Positions 28,551-64,000 of a DNA stretch of 64,000 nucleotides are shown here, piece after piece; within the stretch, counting starts at the first letter, position 1, and each line of letters opens with the position of its first letter. Both the position numbers and the translations under genes were made by a program. The stretch is taken from contig CM034547.1 of NCBI GenBank assembly GCA_020055645.1, positions 22,530,513-22,594,512 of the forward strand, in the 5' to 3' direction. The stretch is from Tomocerus qinae. Taxonomy: Eukaryota > Arthropoda > Collembola > Entomobryomorpha > Tomoceridae. A model generated the notes under the pieces. That model searched no databases and was not told where the DNA came from. It was given only the letters and a program-made list of their open reading frames with translations.

Positions 28551-31500
28551 TTAAATAAAAAAGTTTGGGTTTACGAGTTGGCTTTCTGGGCCATCAAAGT
28601 TAAAGTCCATTGCGCCAGAACCAGAGGAGATGGACTGATCCCAAGGCACAGTGTTCCATGGATCCATAGGGTCTTCCATTACATCGATGTCAATATCACC
28701 AGGTAGTCCCGACTCAATCTTAAAATCAGTCTGCATGTCCAAAAGATCTTCCCAGGATGCTAATTCGGCTCCTAAAACTTCTTCCTGGCCATGCATGCTT
28801 GAAAATAAATCGTCCATATGACCCATTGATGGTGATAAAGGCTCGTTCTTCATCATCATCATTGGCATTTTCAAGCTTGCCTCCACATTGGGCATCATTA
28901 GTTCAGTGCTCGGAACAGCCTCTAAAGCTATAATTGCAAAAAACGCTCTTATCAGTACATGCAGTGATAATGTTACTGTTTTTGAACTCTGGATTATTGA
29001 CTCAGATAAAATGACGAAGTGGTCAAAAGGAGCTTAAATTCTTATGTTATAACTAATATGATCATGATATATGTTTTGATATTTTGTTTGCTAACGCTGA
29101 ATAGTATCATTTGATTGGGAATGAACTGTCTGTCTAGCGTATCCTCCACAACAACTTTGTATCCTCATTTATTGAGTGTAATACATCCAAAGATAATTTT
29201 ATTGCGTAGCAATTTAAAGCAGATATCCGATCAACTAAATCAAATGTGCATAACATTTGGCTTACATGCATTTATGATATAATTTAAACAGGAAGGCTTA
29301 CCAGCATGTAGACTTCGACGTGATGAATCAACAACGGTTACTTTAGGAATTGTTTGCAAAACTGTTTGCCCAGTAGTTGAAGATACGGAGTCATCTTCAT
29401 ACATTGAGGCACTTTCCGGAGAATCGGGTGAGGAGGGAGACTCAGGAACTTTAGCCAGTGGAGGTGTCAAATGAGTCATACTTTCTCCATTCTGTTTTAT
29501 ACTTTCTTTGAACTTCTTGTCAATAGTAAGCCTGAGATTGAAACGAGACGACTCAGGAGGAGTTTTTATAGTTGAGGTTACGACGTGAATTCGATTGCAG
29601 GGAGGAGATCCAGGAGAACTAATGCTTGAGGTTTCGCAAAATACATTTATTGGAGACGTGACTTTCTTTTTAGGAGTTTCGTAAGTACTGGATATTCCTG
29701 GAGATTGACATGCCAGAGATTTGGATCGGCACTGTTTCTTTTTCGGTGTGGACGATGAGGTAGAAATAGTTGCTGGAGGACTTTTCCGAATAATCTTTGC
29801 TGGAGATGGGCCTGGAACAACCGTCTCAGGGCCACTCTTTGCCCTTTTCTTAGGCCGATATTTATAATCAGGGTATTCTTGTGAGTGCAAAATACGGAGT
29901 CTCTCAGCTTCGTCGATGTACGGTTTTCGTTCTCCCTCAGAGAGCAATTTCCATTGTCTTCCTAGTCTCTTACTTATCTCTGCATTATGAATGTCTGGAT
30001 TTTTTTCACAAATCTTTCGTCGTTCTATTTGAGACCAAACCATAAACGCATTCATCGGTCTTTTGATGTGGTTAGGTGGATGTTTCTTTGTCTGGAAAGA
30101 ACAAAACACCTACCAATGAACATATTTTTCGAATTTCGGTTTGTTTTTGCTCTCATTTCTAAAGGTTCTATTATTAAATTACCAGACTCCAGTTCTTTTC
30201 ATTCATCTTACTTTACATAAAATAAATGCTCTCCATTTTGAAGTATTTGTAATTTGTAAGTAATGTATCTCCTTGTACTTTCTTATAACAATGCTTAACC
30301 TTGCACAAAACCATCTACCATTCACCATTCCACAGACTAGCTAAATGTATTAATGCACAACAGGGAGCTTTTGGGAAAAGGAATGCTTGCTTTTATATTC
30401 ATGCAAAACAGTTTGACTACAAATACAACGTTTACGTAAAACCCATGTATGGAAGAAAAATACTTCTCTATTCACTTCAATTTGATATTCATGGCCATTT
30501 AAAAACTCATTCTTTTAAAACATGATCTGCATTTTTCCGTTTACCCACAGACGAGTACAAACGCTAACTTACATTCTTCACAGATAGGTATTACTAGACC
30601 AGCACCTAAGTACTAAGATCCTGTAGGTATTATAAATTTACATTTTGTAGCCAACCACCACTTACATACCTTAGTAATTAAAAACATCACTCCAGCTCAG
30701 GCTCGGTCTCGCCCAATAGCATATTTATAACATTCAACAGAATTCACTGAATTCAAAATCAGTCTTTTTTACCAATATTATGAGACCTGGGACTTGGGAC
30801 CTAGTCTGGTGTAAATTGCATAAAATTAGTGAGCTCTAATTCTAAATGTCTGCCTAGTGTTGTCCCTACATACTACATACCCACAGAGACTACAGGCAAG
30901 CACTCACTCTACTCATACAGTTACAGAGTTGCAGATAATCTCTTCTCTGAAATACCATCGGAAAATGCATCACATTACAAAATTCATGGAAAGTCATAGA
31001 CAAAGTCTGATTTGAATATCCATTTGTATGGAAGTGAATGATAATGCATGAAGCCAAATGAATACGGCAAGGCAGAACCAGCATCAGCTGGAATTTGAAT
31101 TAGCCATTTACTGTAATACGACGTATCTATTCTATTTTATCTGCTCTATGTGACCCAAGAGGGAGGACACATTTCTTCCTTATAAATGGAAAGCGATATC
31201 CAAACAAATCAATCAGATAAAAGTTACTCTTTTCCTTAGGCAAAGAGAAGGACATAATTCTGCAAATAATTCCTTTTCTACGACTTAGGAAACTGAGGTC
31301 TGCCTGAGTGAGTAATAGACAGTTGATTTATTTTTATACTTGAAATTGCATCATCATTGACATGGAGTATAGAGGAACAGCGAGCGAGTACCACCATCAT
31401 AACATACACATAAAAAGAGAGCTAGGTATTCAGTTTGTCAACCCTGTGCATGCAAACCTTGTAAACTGCAGGTTTTACAAATATAACTAAAAGTCACAAG

Positions 31501-34234: not shown

Positions 34235-35045
34235 AAAAATCAACAAAAAATCAAAGTTGATTAACGTTGACTATGAAAATCAACAGAAAATCAAAATTGA
34301 TTAATGTTGACTATGAAAATCAACAGAAAATCAAAATTGATTAATGTTGACTATGAAAATTAACAGAAAATCAAAATTGATTAATGTTGACTATGAAAAT
34401 CAACAGAAAATCAAAATTGATTAATTTTGAATATGAAAATTAAAAGAAAATCAAAATTGATTAATGTTGACAATGAAAATCAATAGAAAATCAAAATTGA
34501 TAAATGTTGACTATGAAAATCAACAGAAAAACAATAATTGATTAATATTGACTATCAAAATCAAAAAAAAATCAAAATATATTAATATCGACTATGAAAA
34601 TCAACAGAAAATCAAAATTGATTAATATTGACTACCAAAATCAAAACAAAATCAAAATATATTAATATCGACTATCAAGATCAATGCACCAGAAAATATA
34701 TTAATATTGACTATCAAAGTCAATACATAATGAAAATATACTAATATTGACTATAAAAGTCAATACATAATGAAAATATATTAATATTGACTGTCAAAGT
34801 CAATACATAATGAAAATATATTAATAGTCACTATCAAAGTCAATAAATAATGAAAATATATTAATATTGACTATCAAAGTCAATCGTAATGAAAATATAT
34901 TAATATTGACTATCAAAGTCAATACATAATGAAAATTTATTAATATTGACTATCAAAGTCAATACATAATGAAAATTTATTAATATTGACTATCAAAGTC
35001 AATACATAATGAAAATATATTAATATTGACTGTTAAAATCAAGAC
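34235..35045. repeat. 40-bp satellite array, about 20 copies, two subfamilies
   Basis: A 40-base unit repeats head to tail about twenty times. The first part (to about 34.55 kb) uses units with GAAAATCAACAGAAAATCAA and TTGATTAATGTTGACTAT. After a mixed stretch, the last part (from about 34.69 kb) uses units with TTAATATTGACTATCAAAG and TCAATACATAATGAAAATAT. Each late unit contains ATTGACT-ATCAA-AGTCAAT, a 7-bp stem with a 5-base loop. Neighbouring copies are the most alike, as expected from unequal exchange. There is no open frame of note. Confidence 0.9.
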
Positions 35046-35220
35046 AAACTTGAAACAGATTCGTTATTTTACTTTTAAAGGTAGTTTTCCGTTTTAGTTA
35101 TTTTACTATATAATTTCAGTTTTAGTAGAAGCGGCATGATATAGTTTATACTATCCCGCTAACAATCTATAGGAAACGGTATTACAACTTTCAATGCCCA
35201 TTTTTCACTTTAACTATCAA

Positions 35221-43831: not shown

Positions 43832-48096
<4,265 letters not shown>

Positions 48097-53000: not shown

Positions 53001-55122
53001 CGCATCTTATTGCAGCATCGGTCATGCTGGAAAGCACAAATTGTAAAACATAAATTGCTACTGAGTAAAATCACAATTTTACAAAATTTAGTGAATATAA
53101 GTATAAATACAAAATATAATTTTAAAACTGATTTTGCTTACCGACAATGATCAATGTAATGTCCAATAGCTTCATTAATATAATGAACGGGAAATGAACG
53201 AGCTATTGCCATCGGAGGATTAGATTGGGTCATCATAAAATGTGACAATGCTGCCATTTCTAATGATGATGCATAATGAGTCCATGCACAGTCAGCAGAA
53301 AAGTCTTTCTTAATTTGGTGATAGAACTGATACGCGCCAGAGTAATGGCCAAAAAGAAAATAAATATCCGCCAATTTCCTGCTCATCATTTCTGGCGATT
53401 CTGGAGTATATCTGAGAAAAGAGATTTAAAAAAAATATAATGTCGTACAATAGCCAGCAATAATAAAAACAATGAAATGCATATACAATGTAGCATTTCA
53501 TACATGACAGATGTTGCAGGCTTAGCTCCAGTTCCGGAAAGACGCTTAAAAGCACTAAAAAATGACCTACTCATACCACGCCTATTTAAAATCTGATAAA
53601 CCAAACAAAAGCCAATGTCAAAGTAATTATAATTTCAATTAATAATATTATATGTATATTAATATGATAATAATAAATTTTGGTAAAAGAACATTTACCG
53701 ATTCATGTAAAATCCGGGCTTGTCTTTCTACGTAAGGCAATAGCGCTTTTCCTATAAACTCGTTAATGGCAACTTGAATGTTTTGCAAATCTTGCTGTTC
53801 CAAGCAGCCACCTTTTCTTATTTTATTACTTTGCGAGGCCCCAATTTCTCCATTTTGAGGCAACATAGGAGGGGAAAATTCCGACTCGGGACTCAACGGG
53901 TGAAACAGATCGGTTGTAACTGTTTCTGTTTCGGCATATGGTTTTATTAATTCATTGGATAATTCCCCCTAGACGCAACAAAACATATATCAGAATTAAA
54001 ATTGGTTGACACGTTGAAAATAATTAAAATGGAATTGATGATTAATATTTCTTTTAACATTTTACTGACCATTTCGGCAGTTCTTAGCCCTAGCATCTAA
54101 CTTAAGTATTATCACGTATTATTTTCACTCACTGTTCCCTGCTGAATTATGTCATTCTCTTGATCAATAAACGGAGACCATGGGTCAGGAATAGAGTCTC
54201 TCTGGGTCAGCTCTTGAGGATTTACACTATTAATTTTTAGCATGTAACAAAAATTACCCCCGTAAATTGTGCGCAAACTTTGGTACATTGCTTCGGCTCT
54301 GAAATTTAAGAAAACTATACATATTATACTGGTTAAAGTTATATGTAAGTAATTAACTATAAATAAAATTCGTAATTTATTACTTACGGATTGGAATCAT
54401 CCATGGAATTATCATGCAATATTAGATAAAATTTGATTACTGAAGGAAAAATCCAAGTATGAGGCCACTCTATTTGATGTTGTTGTTGCAATTTACTAAG
54501 TTTTCCTATTATGGAAGACAAATCTTCCGATGATTTGACTTCGGATGAAGATATTACTAATATACATGCCATAAAATGATGAAGAAACTCATGCTGATTA
54601 TTTTGTTGCTCCGAATGAAGCCTTAAGAATGTTTCCCTCCAAACATTGAACCATGCTGTATTCTCTGGCACCGAAACTTTATATTCTGAAATTCCGGTTT
54701 CCAATTTATGTTGCTTAAAAAGATTGGATGATTCCTGGCTAAGACCGTATAAAGGGGGCAATGTCCGAGATACAACATTGTTAAGAATTGTTCTATTTTT
54801 TTGGATATCTTGATCAGAAGGTTTCCACAAAGCTATATCCACAGGAGTTATTCGTAATGGTCTCCCATTTATGCTTTGTCCCGCTGGCTCCTGCCACGAA
54901 ACTATATAAAAAATCCATTTAAAAATCCTTAAACACCAAAATTTCAAAGTATATGTTAAGCTTACGGTCTGTAGTGAGCGAACAAAACGGCTGAACCAAC
55001 TGCGTGAAGGTCAAGTCATTCTTTTTGCAAACACTTTCAGCAACTCTTGAGCAGAGAATTGCCACACGAGGGCTAAATGTGTCGTTCACTAATTCCTTAG
55101 CTGAAGTTTTGCTACCTGACAT
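50004..55122 (-). CDS. TRAPPC8: TRAPP III subunit 8 (Trs85 homologue), vesicle tethering
   Basis: Subunit specific to the TRAPP III complex, which tethers vesicles and activates Rab1 in ER-Golgi traffic and autophagy. Fifteen minus-strand exons: 54,966-55,122; 54,388-54,901; 54,133-54,298; 53,699-53,968; 53,504-53,592; 53,142-53,411; 52,821-53,026; 52,487-52,737; 52,227-52,372; 52,018-52,145; 51,767-51,912; 51,482-51,697; 50,900-51,382; 50,341-50,786; 50,004-50,244. Phases agree at every join; total 3,729 nt, 1,242 aa (human about 1,435). The ATG follows an in-frame TGA. Family landmarks in order: FSPRVAILCS with FTQLVQPFC (N terminus), WFNVWRETFLRLHSEQ, DSIPDPWSPF, MSRSFFSAFKR, TSEDCDLRSALMLEQAA (about residue 520), GWRFAEDHVHFTIARHQ, VEFPIENPLSIE, RGPRLNSTKAEKSGK, and the C-terminal beta-rich part ending SPIIISQVSVS. 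The donor of exon 13 is uncertain by 9 nt (CAG|GTTATC or AAC|GTAACT, both in phase). Confidence 0.95.
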
Positions 55123-56651: not shown

Positions 56652-59600
56652 CTAATGATGAGAAATGCACTTCAAAATGCTGATAACGACAATATCGATT
56701 TCTTTTTTCGTTGTACTTCTACCCACGCTAAAACGGACAGTTCTTTCCGCTTCATCAATAGATAGACCAGAAGCTAATAGGATTGCTAACGATTACGATA
56801 AAAAAGATATTTCTTTATTGTTATTATGTGTTATGTTTTAAGAAATTAAATACTAACCAAAACGTATACTCGTACCTGATGGCTTAAGTTGACCTGAGTG
56901 ACAAGCAGCTCCCAAACTGGCATAAAATTTGGTTTCACAAGTTTTCAAAATATCCGATCCTTTGAAACCTTTCGGTAAAGTGACGCTTAAAGTGTTCGGT
57001 AGTCTGTTACACTGAGTGAAGTTGCAAGATATGTTTGGTATTTTTTCCTTAATATAGACGAAAATGTTTTGTACACAAATTTGAAAGAAATGATAATGAT
57101 TATCTTGCATAAAATGACACATGCATATCGGGTATCTATAGTGTGCTTTAATAAGTGTATTATATGTAAATAAAAGTATACTAACATATAGAAGACTTTG
57201 AAAGTAATTACGGTGGTCCAACATTGTACTCTCGTAAACAATTATGTTTTCAGCAACAAGTTTGGAAGCAAGACCCAGCCCAGCTATCATAGCGGTATTT
57301 TCTGTTCCCGGCCTTAGTCCTCTTTCTTGACCACCTCCGAAGATTATTGGGAAAACATTTTTTCCCTTTTCAAGATCTCTAGCATATAGAGCACCAATAC
57401 GAGGAGCGTAAAACTTAAATCCAAATATAAAATATCATTCATACATATATATGTTAACGGCAATAAGTAAATTCAGGCATTAAGCTTAATGCCTAGGCAA
57501 TAAGTAAAATTTTTGAAGAATTATAGTTTTTAGTATTTGAAAGGGGAGTACCGGGTTTCGCTGGACACATTGGCCTAGGTCAATTGAATTTTTAAAAAAT
57601 CCCATGAAAATCAATTGTGACATGGGTGGGCCTGAGATTCTTGGCAAAAATTGTCGTAGTAACTAGATTTTTAGCATAAATGGTAGAATAAAATGATAGG
57701 ATCTCTACAAGATGATACTCCTCCGCTAATGACTCCAAGGTGATTATGAATAGGAGTTAACACAAAGGTATGTCAGTAACCCTGACTGTGACCCGACTAT
57801 CATATTCCCCACTAACTTTTATTGAAAAAATTTAAAAGTTACGCCCGCGGTTTTGAAAAGTGAGTGTCAAAACAAATCAAATTATCGCAAAATTGAAAAA
57901 AAGGAACGGTTGAGGCTGACAAGGAAGAATTTAAGCAGCAGAGACAAGGGAAGAAACGAAGAAGAGGGAGGAGGATAAAAAGGTTCAGCAGAAGGAGAAA
58001 AAGGATCAGCAGGAGAAAAAGGATCAGCAGAAGGAGAAAAAGGATCAGCAGAAGGAGAAAAAGGATCAGCAGAAGGAGAAAAAGGACAAGTACTGCGAGT
58101 GTTTTGACAAAGTCGCCGAAGATACTCTGCCTCAACGGACATTTCTTTAGGTAATTTTAAATAATAAATACTTAAATAATATTAAATACTTAAATAGATT
58201 AAATTCAAAATTAAAAAATATTTTGCAGTGAGTGGATTTCTGGACAGCGTGGAAGAGCCTGCCAAAGCGATTGTGAGGAACCCGTTTCAGCCATTCCAAG
58301 AGAAAGAAGCCTACTACTAAAGGGCAGACTACAAACGTCACTACCGTTTTCACTGTGTGAGTTTTAATTTTAATTATTATATGTCAATAGTAAAGCAAGT
58401 GTCCGTAAAAGCGACCAAAAAAATTGATTTAAGCCTACATTTTTAAATCATAAAACATGCACTTTTCATTGGCAACACAATAAGTTTCCGCCCTAGCCGG
58501 CTTTCAAGTGAGTAATCCTTGATGTTATTTGGGTCGGGTACCGGTAAAGCCACTGGCAATGGTCAAGAATGTCAACCTTTACTTGGTACCTTTTTCCTAA
58601 TAGCTTGTCTTTGGACTTGCGTTTGAAGGAAGCCCATAGACGGTAGGCGATGGCTTACACACTCTCTGCTCGCATTGAACCTCTGATGTTCTGGCAAATG
58701 TATGAAACACAATGGTTTGTGATTCTATGCCACATCAGTTGGGTAGGATTCCTGTTGTTTTAGGTTCAAAAATAGAACAAAAGCCTTAATTGAAGCATTT
58801 GCCAAACCATGTTAGAATGATGGTATATTTGGACAAGTGCAAAGCCTGATGGGCAGGTGGAAAGGAAGACAGTGATGAATTGGTTCAACCAAGGCGGCCA
58901 TTGTCTTAAAAGAAATACTTACCAAACCATGTTAAAATGGTGGTATATTTGGACAAGTATGAAGCCTCTGCAAACCCCGTCATGCCTCTTAGCACGCCAG
59001 ATTTATGCCGAAAGGTATATAGTAAGCCGATGGAGGTAGATGGAACAGTGGCAGAGGGGACAAAAGAAGCATATATTGAACCAATTATAAGAAAATAAAT
59101 TAAAAAAGCAAAATGTATAATCAATTAATAGGTATTTCAGGTAAAAAAAGGTAGCTAAATGTTTTGTTATACCAATTACTTTTATAATACTCATTTAAAT
59201 CTTAAACTATAACATTACAAAGTTCTAACGTGACAATATTATTTGTATTAAAAATTACAGAAACTAACAGATCTTGTGGGGCCAACAAATGTAAATTATG
59301 CCGGGACTTTTTAAATATTGTCGTGTGTGCTTTCGTAAAATTACTAAGAAAGGACGCAAGAATGAATGTGATTCTGTTTGGATACCACTTCAAAAGTACG
59401 CTACTTTTATGCAACAAACTTCTGGTGTGGAATTGGTTTATAAAAAAGGTGATGGTTACGTGTGCGGCGACTGCTACCTAGCTATGAAAAACAATCAATT
59501 TCACCTTATTGTACCACTAAATAGCTTGAAAAGAACTTTAAGCACTATGGAAAATGACTTAATGGACATTGATTCACAATCTCAACAGGAGGATGACATC

Positions 59601-62600
59601 TCATCTTTGCAAAATGATTCAATGGATTACTCAACTCAGTCTTCCCTATCGAGTGTTTCAAACACATATTGTTCAAACTTCTCCGTTGATTCACAGGCAT
59701 CGACAGTGAGTTTTGATTCTCAAAGTTCGATAGTCTCAGCCGGTTTTAGTGGTAATTCTTTAAACTTAACTTCAAGCTTCAACAGTGTCAACAGCAATAA
59801 CTCTGGTGAAGAGAGTGCAGTTTTGGAAAATAGAAGTTCGATTTCTGAAAGTTCAATAAGTGACTCTACTAGATTTAAGATCCCCAAAGTCAAGAATGCG
59901 ATTCAAATTGATATCCCAGCTTGTGCTAGCACAATGAGCAAGTGCTTCCTTTGCGGCAACAAAGGTAAGGAAGGAAGATTGAGAATTCCAAAGAGGGCTA
60001 TTGCTTCTATATGGTATCATAAAAAAGTGTTTATCCCAGTGAATAATAGATGCTGTACCACCCATTTAAGTGATAATGGATATTTTAATGATGACGCAGA
60101 AAAGAAAATCATTGCTTCCCAAAGTTCCACTTTGTTAACTGGAAAGGACATAAAAGTATTACTGTCATCTTTAAACGACAAAGTCTTTTCTACAGTGAAA
60201 ACAGTAACTTTTGATGAGAATTCTCAATACACCACTTATGACTATGAGTTGTTAACGGGTTTATCCAAAAAGGACTTCGACCACACTTTTGGGCTAATTT
60301 CATCGGAACTACGTAATAGCTGTAACAGAACTAAAAGGAACGCTCTTGGCCTTTTTCTCATGAAATTAAGGACAAACTTATCTCAAGAGGTACTCTCCAT
60401 ACTTTTCAACATGAACTGTCAACAACGTGTCAGTGAGACATTCGAAAGTGTGAGAGTAGCGTTGGAAAAACACTTTGTTCCTCGGTATCTTGGATATGAA
60501 CACCTGACAAGAGAACAGGCTAAAGTACATCAATCCACCTTCGCCCATTCTCTTTTTGGAGCAGACGAAGAATCACTATGCCTTATTGCTGATGGAACAT
60601 ATTTATTCATCGAACAGCTATCGGACCATGATGAACAGAAGAAAACCTATTCGAACCACAAACATGGGAACCTTGTAAAGCCAATGATGGTCATTCACCC
60701 AAAGGGTTATATTCAGAATGCTGACGGCCTTTACTTTGCAGACAATGGGAACAATGATTCGAACATTTTGAAAGCTATGTTACTTGATGTTAATGGAATT
60801 TCCTCTTTCTTGCGCCCTAATGATTTTATTTTGCTTGACCGCGGATTTCGGGACGTTATACCAGACCTTACCGAGAAAGGATATAAAACTTATTCTCCTA
60901 GCTGTTTGCAGAAAAAACAGCCACAATTCACTACTCTTCAGGCAAATGAAACCAGAAAAGTGACTATGATTCGTTGGACAGTGGAAGCAAAAAACGGGCA
61001 CGCAAAACGATTTCGGTTTCTTAAAGAAAAAATAGAAGCTACCTATCTGCCCAAACTCTCTTCTATCTTCAGAATAATATGCGGATTTCTCAATGCGTAC
61101 TCTCCACCGCTCTTTCTAGACGATGAAGAGCACTTGGAAATGGCTAAAAACGCTGTGTTGAGAACACAGCAAGAAAATGTACTACAGCGTCGAGTAGAAA
61201 CATTGAACTTAGAACTTCGAAGAAAGAATTTAATACCAGCCTCTAAAGCAACTCTTTTGAACTTCCCTGTTTTGACTGAAAAGGATATTAAAAATATAAC
61301 AATTGGAATGTATCAACGTAAAAATGCTCCCTTATACACTCGACGACACCTAAAGAAGGATTCCAATTACTGCTTTTGGACTTTTGAAGAACTAGAACTG
61401 GCTGATATGATTCGAGTGAATATGGAATCAAGATTCGGGCAAGGGATTCACAAGCTATGGATATCATTTGACAACTCTAAAGCAGGAGAAGAAGCAATTA
61501 CTGGGTGGTATTGCCGCTGTAAAAACGGTGCACGTACAGTTGGCTGCTGCAGTCATGTCACGTCTGTAATTTGGTACCTGGGTCTTGCTCGACATGAAGA
61601 AATTGATTTGATTTCAAACAAGCGCAAATTAGCGGACAACATACTCGACGCGGCAAAAATACTGCAAAACCACATGGAGGAAAGTCAAGAAGATGTCGAA
61701 GACGTTTAACCGTATCTACCGAGTGCCAAATTAACCATCCTATTTAATTTCAATTTAAACATTGCCATATTATCGAGTTCAATAGAGTGTTATTCAGTAT
61801 TATTGAGATGTGTTTATCAGTACCTTAGTAAATGGTATAATTTAAGCTTGTTGTAAAGTGAAATTGAAATGTTTTGTAAAGTAAAGAGTGAATTCGTTAA
61901 TACAGAAATATGAATAATTTTAAACTGTCAATTTTAAATTATAGATAGCATGATTATAGATTTTAGATAAATAGTGTTTTCTTTCCCATACAATTTAACT
62001 AACCAATTTCTTCGAAACTACTCGAATTCTTTCGAAACTACTCGAATTCTTTCAAAACTACTCGAATTCTTTCGAAACTACTCGAATTCTTTCAAAACTA
62101 CTCGAATTCTTTCGAAACTACTCGAATTCTTTCGAAACTACTCGAATTCTTTCGAAACTACTCGAATTCTTTCGAAACTACTCGAATTCTTTCGAAACTA
62201 CTCGAATTCTTTCGAAACTACTCGAATTCTTTCGAAACTACTCGAATTCTTTCGAAACTACTCGAATTCTTTCGAAACTACTCGAATTCTTTCGAAACTA
62301 CTCGAATTCTTTCGAAACTACTCGAATTCTTTCGAAACTACTCGAATTCTTTCGAAACTACTCGAATTCTTTCGAAACTACTCGAATTCTTTCGAAACTA
62401 CTCGAATTCTTTCGACACTATTCGAATATTGATTTAGTATTATTCAAAGATTTTTAATGCTGATCTTATTCTGGACAGTGCCTTATTCCGTACAGTGCCC
62501 CGGCACTGTGATAATTGAAGAGATACTGCTCTTTATTCGTAGGCTGACAATCCCCATCTGCAGTTTGTGGGCATTTGACATCGAATTACCTTGGTTGAGT

Positions 62601-63975
62601 TAGTAACTAATATACATACTGCTAGTGTTAACTTACAGGGGGTCAAAAATAGTTTAGACATTTTTTCCTTTCATCAATTAATAAAAGTACTATTGGTTTA
62701 GATGTACCCTGTATCGTCATGAACACTTATGACAACACAAAATGCCATAAAAATGTAATTTTAACCATTTCTTAATATTCAAAAATGAATTCCTCCTGAA
62801 CAAAAAAGAACCCATTTTTGAGATTTATACAATAAATTCAGGTAATGGTCATCTTCTTATCATAAAAATATGGACTTCCTAAGTTTATGAGCCATGACCG
62901 TTTTCATTAAAAAACTTTGACGAAAACAGTTTGAGTATGTAAATAGGTGTTAAAAGTACCAGTGGTTGCAATCGAATATCTGCCGAACGGAAAAAAACCC
63001 ATTTTCAAAACTGATGTATGACCTTCATCACTTATTAACCTATGGGTGTACTGATTATGGAGGCTCTATTTCTATGAGCCATCGGTCAAATGTCCACTTG
63101 CAATATGGGTCCTTAAGCGGTACTCCCCTTTAGAAGACCATTTATATAGTCCAATTATATTCTTTTTCCTAAATAAGGACATTGTAACGAATTTAAAATG
63201 CCGCATATGAATAGTGTGCAACTAAGACTTAAGAAGTTGTAGTGGTTTTTATGCAAAAGTTTTAAGGTCTAAAACTCGGTCCTTATTCATGACACAGTAA
63301 ACATCTTTACCTTTTTGGACGTCTAAAATTGTTCTTATTCACATACAAATACGAAATAATGGTATATGAATGTTCTTTCAAATTATAAGTACGGAAAACT
63401 AAAATCTTTCAAAATTTTACTTAATGCCTAGGCATTAAGCTTAATGCCTGAATTTACTTATTACCGTTAACATATACATTACACACATATTGGCATTATA
63501 AAGATAATAAACACTAACTACTAAGACAAAAGAGCGATCCAAAAGTCATGTAACATAGTTTATATTTTCCCTATTATCAAACTAACTTTTAAAAAACTTT
63601 TTATCGGGAGGAAAAGAGCCTAAGGAATTATTACAAACTTTATATATTATATTATTTATAATTTTAGTCAAAAGAATGTCTGTACTTTATGCCCTACAAT
63701 GGTGAGGTAGTCAACGCACAATTCATCCACATCAACCCTGATTTTTCCAATAGTCTGAGCTGCATCCGAATGAAAAAGTATAGGAATATTATTATTTGCT
63801 TCCCGGTTTGTGTTTATGTTACGCAACTTGCTACCGATTTCCGAAATTGGCATTAGCACACCCGTTTCATTATTAGCATGCATTATTGTTACGAGGCAAG
63901 TATTGTCACAAACAGCGGTCAAAACTGAATCGACATCAACTTTCCCAATTTCGTCAACTTCTACAACGGAGAGAT
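56652..63975 (-). CDS. SCLY: Selenocysteine lyase, 3' part (partial)
   Basis: PLP enzyme of the NifS/class V aminotransferase family that splits selenocysteine to alanine and selenide. Four minus-strand exons lie in the window: 63,686-63,975; 57,186-57,413; 56,876-57,047; 56,652-56,785 (273 aa plus stop; human about 445). The 5' exons lie past 64,000. Seen in order: HANNETGVLMP, HSDAAQTIGK (PLP-binding Asp), TIVGHK (Schiff-base Lys), FYAPRIGALYARD, GGGQERGLRPGTENT, RLPNT, GAACHSG with the catalytic Cys, and VRFSVGRSTT. FYAPRIGALY and GGGQER fit SCLY better than a mitochondrial NFS1. The join 57,186/57,047 uses TAT|GTTAGT and ATTAAG|GAA and is the least certain, because the intron stays open in frame. 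The intron 57,414-63,685 contains a whole DNA transposon in the opposite orientation. Its acceptor, GGATTTAAG, is weak. Confidence 0.9.
57449..57515 (+). repeat. Left terminal inverted repeat of the 6-kb transposon
   Basis: Pairs with 63,410-63,475 with two substitutions and one single-base indel. It contains GTTAACGG and the perfect 20-bp palindrome AGGCATTAAGCTTAATGCCT, so each TIR can also fold on itself. It lies 35 bases from the selenocysteine lyase exon that begins at 57,413. Confidence 0.88.
57977..58087. repeat. 21-bp purine-rich tandem repeat
   Basis: About five copies of a unit containing AAAAAGGATCAGCAGAAGGAG; one copy lacks three bases. Because 21 is divisible by three, frames stay open on both strands: Lys/Glu/Gln-rich or Arg-rich on plus, and a PFSPSAD repeat on minus (58,142-57,882). 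On the plus strand GTAATT at 58,151 and TTTTGCAG before 58,237 could splice the array to a following open stretch. I cannot decide whether it is coding. Confidence 0.7.
58802..58968. repeat. Pair of 47-bp direct repeats 120 bp apart
   Basis: The segment 58,802-58,848 (beginning CCAAACCATGTTAGAATGAT) recurs at 58,922-58,968 with a few substitutions, keeping GGTATATTTGGACAAGT and AAGCCT. They lie upstream of the transposase gene. They may be remnants of a subterminal repeat, possibly transposase-binding, which is inference. Confidence 0.65.
59298..61709 (+). CDS. DDE transposase with zinc fingers and a C-terminal SWIM finger
   Basis: Intact, intronless 803-aa frame that should cut and move the surrounding element in the nucleus. 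Residues 8-59 hold two CxxC pairs (CRVC, CGDC), a zinc-binding module. Residues 85-195 are very rich in Ser, Asn and Gln and probably disordered. A second Cys/His cluster spans 216-256 (KCFLCGNK, RCCTTHL). Residues 312-385 match the helix-turn-helix that precedes DDE_Tnp_4 domains (LLTGLSKKDFDHTFGLI). The catalytic triad is probably Asp432 (ADGTYLF), Asp514 (LLDRGFRD) and Glu563 (RWTVEAKNGHAKRFRFL), an IS4/IS5/Harbinger-like layout. The C terminus has a SWIM finger CxC...CxH at 739-753. The ATG at 59,298 precedes the first CxxC pair. AAAATTACAG upstream could be an acceptor for an untranslated exon. It lies antisense to SCLY. A domesticated host gene is the alternative, but the inverted repeats argue for a transposon. 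Confidence 0.9.
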   Translation: MPGLFKYCRVCFRKITKKGRKNECDSVWIPLQKYATFMQQTSGVELVYKKGDGYVCGDCYLAMKNNQFHLIVPLNSLKRTLSTMENDLMDIDSQSQQEDDISSLQNDSMDYSTQSSLSSVSNTYCSNFSVDSQASTVSFDSQSSIVSAGFSGNSLNLTSSFNSVNSNNSGEESAVLENRSSISESSISDSTRFKIPKVKNAIQIDIPACASTMSKCFLCGNKGKEGRLRIPKRAIASIWYHKKVFIPVNNRCCTTHLSDNGYFNDDAEKKIIASQSSTLLTGKDIKVLLSSLNDKVFSTVKTVTFDENSQYTTYDYELLTGLSKKDFDHTFGLISSELRNSCNRTKRNALGLFLMKLRTNLSQEVLSILFNMNCQQRVSETFESVRVALEKHFVPRYLGYEHLTREQAKVHQSTFAHSLFGADEESLCLIADGTYLFIEQLSDHDEQKKTYSNHKHGNLVKPMMVIHPKGYIQNADGLYFADNGNNDSNILKAMLLDVNGISSFLRPNDFILLDRGFRDVIPDLTEKGYKTYSPSCLQKKQPQFTTLQANETRKVTMIRWTVEAKNGHAKRFRFLKEKIEATYLPKLSSIFRIICGFLNAYSPPLFLDDEEHLEMAKNAVLRTQQENVLQRRVETLNLELRRKNLIPASKATLLNFPVLTEKDIKNITIGMYQRKNAPLYTRRHLKKDSNYCFWTFEELELADMIRVNMESRFGQGIHKLWISFDNSKAGEEAITGWYCRCKNGARTVGCCSHVTSVIWYLGLARHEEIDLISNKRKLADNILDAAKILQNHMEESQEDVEDV
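62009..62427. repeat. 20-bp satellite, about 21 copies
   Basis: The unit TTTCGAAACTACTCGAATTC repeats head to tail with almost no variation; early copies 3 and 5 have CAAAA for CGAAA and the last copy is degenerate. It carries two palindromes, TTCGAA and GAATTC. Since 20 is not a multiple of three, all three frames are read in turn and an artefactual 152-codon frame runs through it (61,974-62,432). It lies between the transposase gene and the right TIR. Confidence 0.93.
63410..63475 (-). repeat. Right terminal inverted repeat of the 6-kb transposon
   Basis: Inverse complement of 57,449-57,515. It carries the same 20-bp palindrome and ends in CCGTTAACATAT. It lies 210 bases from the selenocysteine lyase exon at 63,686. 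Confidence 0.88.
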
Positions 63976-64000
63976 CTGCAAAGGAAAAAATAAAAAAACG

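Follow-up and report, generated by a model that had tools for sequence, protein, structure and literature searches.

DNA transposons of the Spy type insert at AAATTT, produce no target site duplication (TSD) and carry one ORF (PMC4482050; PMC11304231). Published members are 1165-5910 bp in length with terminal inverted repeats (TIRs) of 5-691 bp (PMC11304231; PMC4482050), and native activity is reported for Spy elements of two species (PMC11304231). Harbinger elements are described as having a TWA TSD and, in an ORF of its own, a Myb/SANT domain (PMC4482050). Here, we describe an insert in an intron of the selenocysteine lyase (SCLY) gene of the collembolan Tomocerus qinae that bears on both the Spy group and the MITEs. 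The window, that is, the whole stretch of DNA that we analysed, comprises 64,000 nucleotides (GCA_020055645.1, contig CM034547.1, positions 22,530,513 to 22,594,512), and copies were sought in a genome of 334.4 Mb in 115 contigs. In all probability, the insert consists of two nested elements, a Spy-type transposon lodged inside an older 435-bp MITE. Both are elements of known kinds, of which these are further, nested members. The near-perfect long repeats and the open transposase between them invite the misreading that they form one element; the comparison of copies corrects it, the two being unrelated.

The host gene and its interrupted intron

SCLY is encoded on the minus strand of the window, and two of its exons, joined K|F, flank the interrupted intron. 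The upstream exon (63685..63975, minus strand) was located by its match to SCLY, with the 5' edge taken from the AG, and the downstream exon (57243..57413, minus strand) by the same match, its 3' edge being approximate. The joined exon peptide aligns with mammalian SCLY over 134 residues on both sides, query 2-135 to 3a9x 170-303, that is, over equal lengths (E 3.8e-49), the weaker matches including an SspA-complex protein (5.8e-27, the best other) and a cysteine desulfurase (2.4e-23, the best of these), and Pfam places Aminotran_5 in 63668-63985 (E 5.1e-17). The intron itself (57414..63684, minus strand) has a length of 6,271 nt, is in phase 0 and runs from GT to AG; it is presumably still spliced out. 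When both elements and one TSD copy are deleted, 246 nt remain by computation. A sequence-only reading of this DNA had described the two SCLY exons with their phase-0 splice sites and had predicted an empty intron of about 245 nt, and both statements hold, as does its unbroken transposase of 803 codons in antisense orientation within the intron (see below).

Elsewhere in the window, exons of an HMG-box (Sox-like) protein gene (29243-30109), of a protein kinase gene (47039-47446) resembling CK2 alpha, and of a TRAPPC/Trs85-like protein gene (54387-55010) were found, and with SCLY the HMG-box and Trs85-like genes point to an animal. A tandem array with a 40-bp unit, repeated about 20 times (34236-35048), lies outside the insert. 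Rfam, at gathering thresholds, gave no match in the window.

Boundaries and targets of the two elements

The inner element spans 5,586 bp (57543..63128, plus strand), with boundaries taken from other copies. Its left end is the 11-bp GGGGAGTACCG (57543..57553, plus strand) and its right end is the same word inverted (63118..63128, minus strand), so that a short inverted repeat, GGGGAGTACCG / CGGTACTCCCC, marks the edges; immediately outside lie AAA (57540..57542), one half of the target AAATTT, and TTT. A second full copy, at C1:87.63 Mb, aligns to window positions 57538-63132 and no further (98.8% identical). The ends of copy E31 correspond to 57540 and 63131; E35 has its left end at 57540, with no right end found at 63131/63132, and E32 and E34 have right ends at 63132 and 63131, respectively, with no left end found at 57540. 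The second copy and the ends of E31-E35, with GGGGAGTACCG and CGGTACTCCCC at the edges, fix the element that carries the transposase at 57543-63128. The exact 23-bp left end occurs at 12 places in the genome and the exact 18-bp right end at 2, the window and C1:87.63 Mb, in a search that would miss diverged right ends. The bases before GGGG at the left end are AAA in nine and AAT in one of the 10 (of 12) places with fetched sequence, and TTT follows the right end in all five examined, two of which read CTCTCC rather than CTCCCC. Within its 5' part, the element contains a 21-bp tandem array (57972..58086, plus strand), of which the second copy has 39 bp less.

The outer element is split into a left part of 91 bp (57452..57542), comprising a long TIR that starts TGTTAACGG, and a right part of 344 bp (63129..63472), which opens on the other half of the target, TTT, and ends CCGTTAACA; copies of a TATA TSD adjoin it on the left (57448..57451) and on the right (63473..63476). 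The long inverted repeat around the transposase extends over 78 nt with 92% complementarity. If up to three mismatches are allowed, an 18-bp core of this repeat has two occurrences in the window, where 0.04 would be expected, and a 24-bp core has 296 occurrences in the genome. From 100 of the 296 core places listed, 20 pairs of facing cores were taken with their flanks for comparison. Once the 5,586 bp are removed and the outer sequence is rejoined, it aligns ungapped over 448-451 bp, at 91.7-92.6% identity, to three of these loci (L012, L019 and L021); in five others (L011, L013, L018, L022 and L028) the alignment has between a few and 15 gaps. The interrupted L024 apart, the remaining fetched loci share mainly the end repeats with it. 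When the genome was searched with the right part of the MITE, 536 candidates were obtained, of which 40 copies, window included, were scored (91-100%). The best other copy, L082, is uninterrupted, aligns without gaps and is identical at 428 of 435 positions; with a sister only 1.6% away, the MITE in the window need not be old.

A TSD of 4 bp adjoins the TGTTAACGG ends in 17 of 20 copies, where mispaired flanks would lead one to expect 7.2, this being the best signal of 160 combinations of end position and length. The set of 20 consists of 19 fetched pairs and the window, without L027, whose flanks duplicate those of L026, and includes longer elements with the same TIR. In a separate set, an exact 4-bp TSD is found in nine of 11 non-window MITE copies; the two without it, L083 and L084, have left ends that are not fully aligned. 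The exact duplication is missing, then, in 3/20 and 2/11 MITE-type copies. Small, non-coding, present in many copies and equipped with TIRs and a TSD of fixed length, the 435-bp element has the properties of MITEs. Its TGT..ACA ends may be like those of Ginger elements. Ginger TSDs are 4-5 bp (PMC4482050). No facing pair of cores spaced 2-10 kb, as might be expected of an autonomous partner, was present among the matches listed (100 of 296). Eleven loci (L009, L010, L014-L017, L020, L023 and L025-L027) have the long TIR of the MITE around other interiors, with 0.4-1.9 kb between cores, and these other element types carry extra copies of a palindromic half-site.

The MITE family provides natural empty sites, and these display, base by base, a Spy insertion at AAATTT without duplication. 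The hexamer occurs once in uninterrupted copies; the window reads AAA-[5,586 bp]-TTT, with nothing duplicated or lost. Ten of 11 non-window copies preserve the AAA|TTT junction, the other reading AAA|TAT; in a second set it is preserved in five of nine copies, where the others read AAA|-TT, AAG|TTT and AAT|GTT or, in L024, contain an insert. The L024 insert (~363-1660), of about 1.3 kb, was considered as a second Spy at the same hexamer; this was rejected, given a near-duplication of about 18 bp, beginning at the AAATTT, and a TGAA-repeat tail that look non-LTR retroelement-like.

Since the Spy element lies nested inside the MITE, the MITE was inserted first, and at the level of sequence comparison the boundaries of the two elements, their order and both target patterns are established. 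Most probably, the MITE (TGTTAACGG..CCGTTAACA, with its 4-bp TSD) entered the 246-nt intron of SCLY 34 nt from the 3' splice site, and the 5.6-kb Spy-type element was later pasted between AAA and TTT inside it, without target duplication. In this scheme, the transposase would cut at the GGGG ends and rejoin them into AAATTT.

Two other histories have to be weighed. The sequence-only reading took the insert to be one autonomous 6-kb transposon, with TIRs of 66-67 bp that the 803-aa transposase would recognise. The inverted repeat that it noticed is real, an open transposase does sit between long inverted repeats and in the right places, and further copies, for which it had suggested a genome search, do exist (296 occurrences of the core of the long repeat, 66 transposase matches). 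The repeats, however, are the TIRs of the MITE and not of the transposase element: the core is absent from five of five Spy copies (the second copy, E31, E32, E34 and E35) within the stretches fetched around them, these copies end inside the repeats, and the long-repeat element exists ungapped without the transposon at L012, L019, L021 and L082. A 6-kb element with an AT TSD, as drawn from the TIR edges, was dropped on the same ground, the second copy stopping inside the supposed unit. Because the TIRs belong to a separate MITE, intact TIRs and an open frame say nothing about a single element. The single transposon, refuted by the two kinds of empty copies, we regard as exceedingly improbable. 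It could also be imagined that MITE and Spy element travel together, the transposase of the MITE carrying the Spy element along, and that the pair reached SCLY already loaded. Around the whole insert, the MITE does retain both ends, with TATA matching on the two sides; yet no other loaded copy is found among the MITE copies listed, and the Spy copy at C1:87.63 Mb is without the MITE core in the fetched stretch. Such joint transport seems improbable, and separate insertion, with the Spy element arriving in a MITE already in place, is the history that we favour.

Nesting also alters what can be said about splicing. The sequence-only reading placed the element 35 bases from the 3' splice site of SCLY, which is close (the MITE starts at 38 nt, made up of 34 nt of host sequence and the 4-bp TSD), although the adjoining element is the MITE. 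Its further proposal, a branch point inside the TIR, is reasonable by a scan of the last 90-110 nt of the intron with the loose consensus YTNAY, except that the site would be carried by the MITE and not by the ORF-bearing element. At distances of 15-49 nt from the 3' splice site, TTAAC at -40, in the end of the MITE, is the single match; one more lies in host sequence at -14, and the MITE contains a further five at -50 to -91. For the empty intron, as reconstructed, the last 90 nt contain matches at -14, -60 and -69, and the insertion displaced those at -60 and -69 from the splice site. Possibly, then, the branch point of SCLY now lies in the end of the MITE; if so, SCLY would exemplify the takeover of a splicing signal by the end of a MITE.

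The transposase and the assignment to Spy

The transposase is encoded by an unbroken ORF of 803 aa (59298..61709, plus strand), antisense to SCLY, with a DDE_Tnp_4 match (E 7.5e-16) at aa 432-599 and an HTH_Tnp_4 match at aa 350-393 that, at 26.3 bits, falls just below the 27-bit cut-off of Pfam. Among the 18 aligned members, and with E up to 10, Pfam detects DDE_Tnp_4 in 18 and HTH_Tnp_4 in 17. A candidate catalytic triad, D432/D514/E563, is invariant across the 18 aligned sequences. Near the C-terminus lies a SWIM-like CxCx9CxH (C739/C741/C751/H753); both the triad and the motif were assigned by us from the alignment, and Pfam reports SWIM weakly, in two of the 18 members (best E 0.079). A Cys/His cluster at about aa 219-256 is also largely conserved. 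It seems plausible that the transposase has zinc-finger-like clusters beside its HTH and DDE domains. A search of PDB for sequence relatives returned a single chance-level match (E 0.64), and relatives in viral contigs were found neither by pattern nor by tblastn.

No ORF of comparable length lies beside the transposase in the inner element. The longest other stop-to-stop frame, leaving aside the frames through a 20-bp tandem array, which reach 153 aa, is of 105 aa, and no Pfam match (E up to 0.1) was obtained for three frames in the 5' part. There is good reason to call the element a Spy, because AAATTT, no TSD and one ORF are the published signature of the group: it is flanked by AAA and TTT without TSD, has one ORF with DNA-binding and DDE domains and, at 5.6 kb with a short TIR, falls within the published ranges. 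It differs in the size of the protein, 803 aa as against about 700 aa for five tested Spy proteins (PMC11304231).

That the inner element is an ISL2EU and not a Spy we consider very unlikely, even though the two are close. Their transposases are related, ISL2EU and Spy forming sister groups in published trees (PMC11304231), Spy is filed under ISL2EU in Repbase (PMC12730594), and the GG at the ends of the present element is a feature of ISL2EU termini as well (PMC4482050). ISL2EU elements, however, have an AT TSD, a THAP domain and a YqaJ ORF. Here, the empty sites read AAATTT once, with no AT duplication, no second ORF of YqaJ size is found, and THAP is not among the 17 Pfam families matched by the 18 members; because of the target pattern and the complement of ORFs, ISL2EU identity was rejected. 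The DDE_Tnp_4 and HTH_Tnp_4 domains are a likeness to PIF/Harbinger, but the TWA TSD of that group was seen neither at the empty MITE sites nor at the Spy flanks, and a separate ORF of Myb/SANT size was not seen in the inner element, where the three 5' frames lack a Pfam match.

Age, arrays and mosaic structure of the Spy copies

There are 66 transposase matches in the genome. Identity falls as low as 41% among those of nearly full length, and many frames are open. Between the two full copies there are 21 substitutions in 5,547 aligned bases (0.38%) and four indels, and because the second full copy differs at only these positions, the element moved recently, a conclusion that comparison of the copies supports. 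The sequence-only reading had suggested recent or current mobility; the recent part agrees with the 21 differences, whereas its argument from intact TIRs falls, the TIRs belonging to the MITE. Our confidence in present activity is low. The 803-aa protein would have moved the element, which could still move, and an element in two copies, 0.38% diverged and with an open transposase, makes a plausible recently mobile Spy. In the ORF, the two youngest copies differ by six non-synonymous and two synonymous changes, too few to show constraint. Over longer distances the transposase is constrained, with a dN/dS of 0.10 in comparison with an 83% copy and of 0.06 at a dS close to saturation.

Downstream of the ORF lies the 20-bp tandem array (62011..62427, plus strand; 20.9 copies, 98% matches). 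A period-20 array 3' of the transposase ORF is present at 16 of 30 loci examined (L029-L058 of the 66 matches, window included), namely the window, L030-L034, L036-L040, L042, L044, L046, L048 and L050. It is absent from the other 14, for some of which the fetched stretch may be too short, and at three loci (L043, L045 and L058) 43-bp arrays take its place. Downstream of a complete ORF, the period-20 array starts 257-388 bp past the stop codon, with the exception of L040 (+1255); where the ORF is truncated or broken, it lies farther from the stop. The units vary among subfamilies, a TACT.GAA-like word being common to most and absent from the L044/L046 unit. Array length can differ greatly between close relatives, with at least 62 units at L044, where they run to the limit of the locus, versus about 24 at L046, the two proteins being 99.4% identical.

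Copy E31 (L031 with L061 and L062; C1:137848600-137855250) is a mosaic. Over its first 1.7 kb, identity to the window element, taken in intervals of 100 bp, is 91-100%; in the coding and 3' parts it is 54-89%, for the most part not above about 80%, a pattern that suggests recombination or conversion between subfamilies. In the main texts of the two Spy papers (PMC11304231; PMC4482050), the words tandem and zinc, with which a 20-bp 3' array and a SWIM-like motif might be described, are absent, and recombination, with which a mosaic might be, occurs only within a reference; under these words, then, none of the three is described there. It is the array and the mosaic, more than the SCLY insertion itself, that make the Spy set of this genome of interest. 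Speculatively, this set may be read as unusually diverse, recently moving and modular: the 20-bp array would keep its period while its unit is rewritten between subfamilies, whole 5' modules would be exchanged between subfamilies through recombination, the array would have a function in the element, perhaps as a multivalent site for the transposase or a host factor, subject to concerted evolution, and the SCLY branch point would have been taken by the end of the MITE. Taken as a whole, this picture is rather unlikely.

At four loci (L069, L070, L074 and L075), the first ~215 bp of the Spy 5' end are held in common (84-85%), the interiors differ, and the loci resemble one another over longer stretches; they are probably non-autonomous relatives of Spy.
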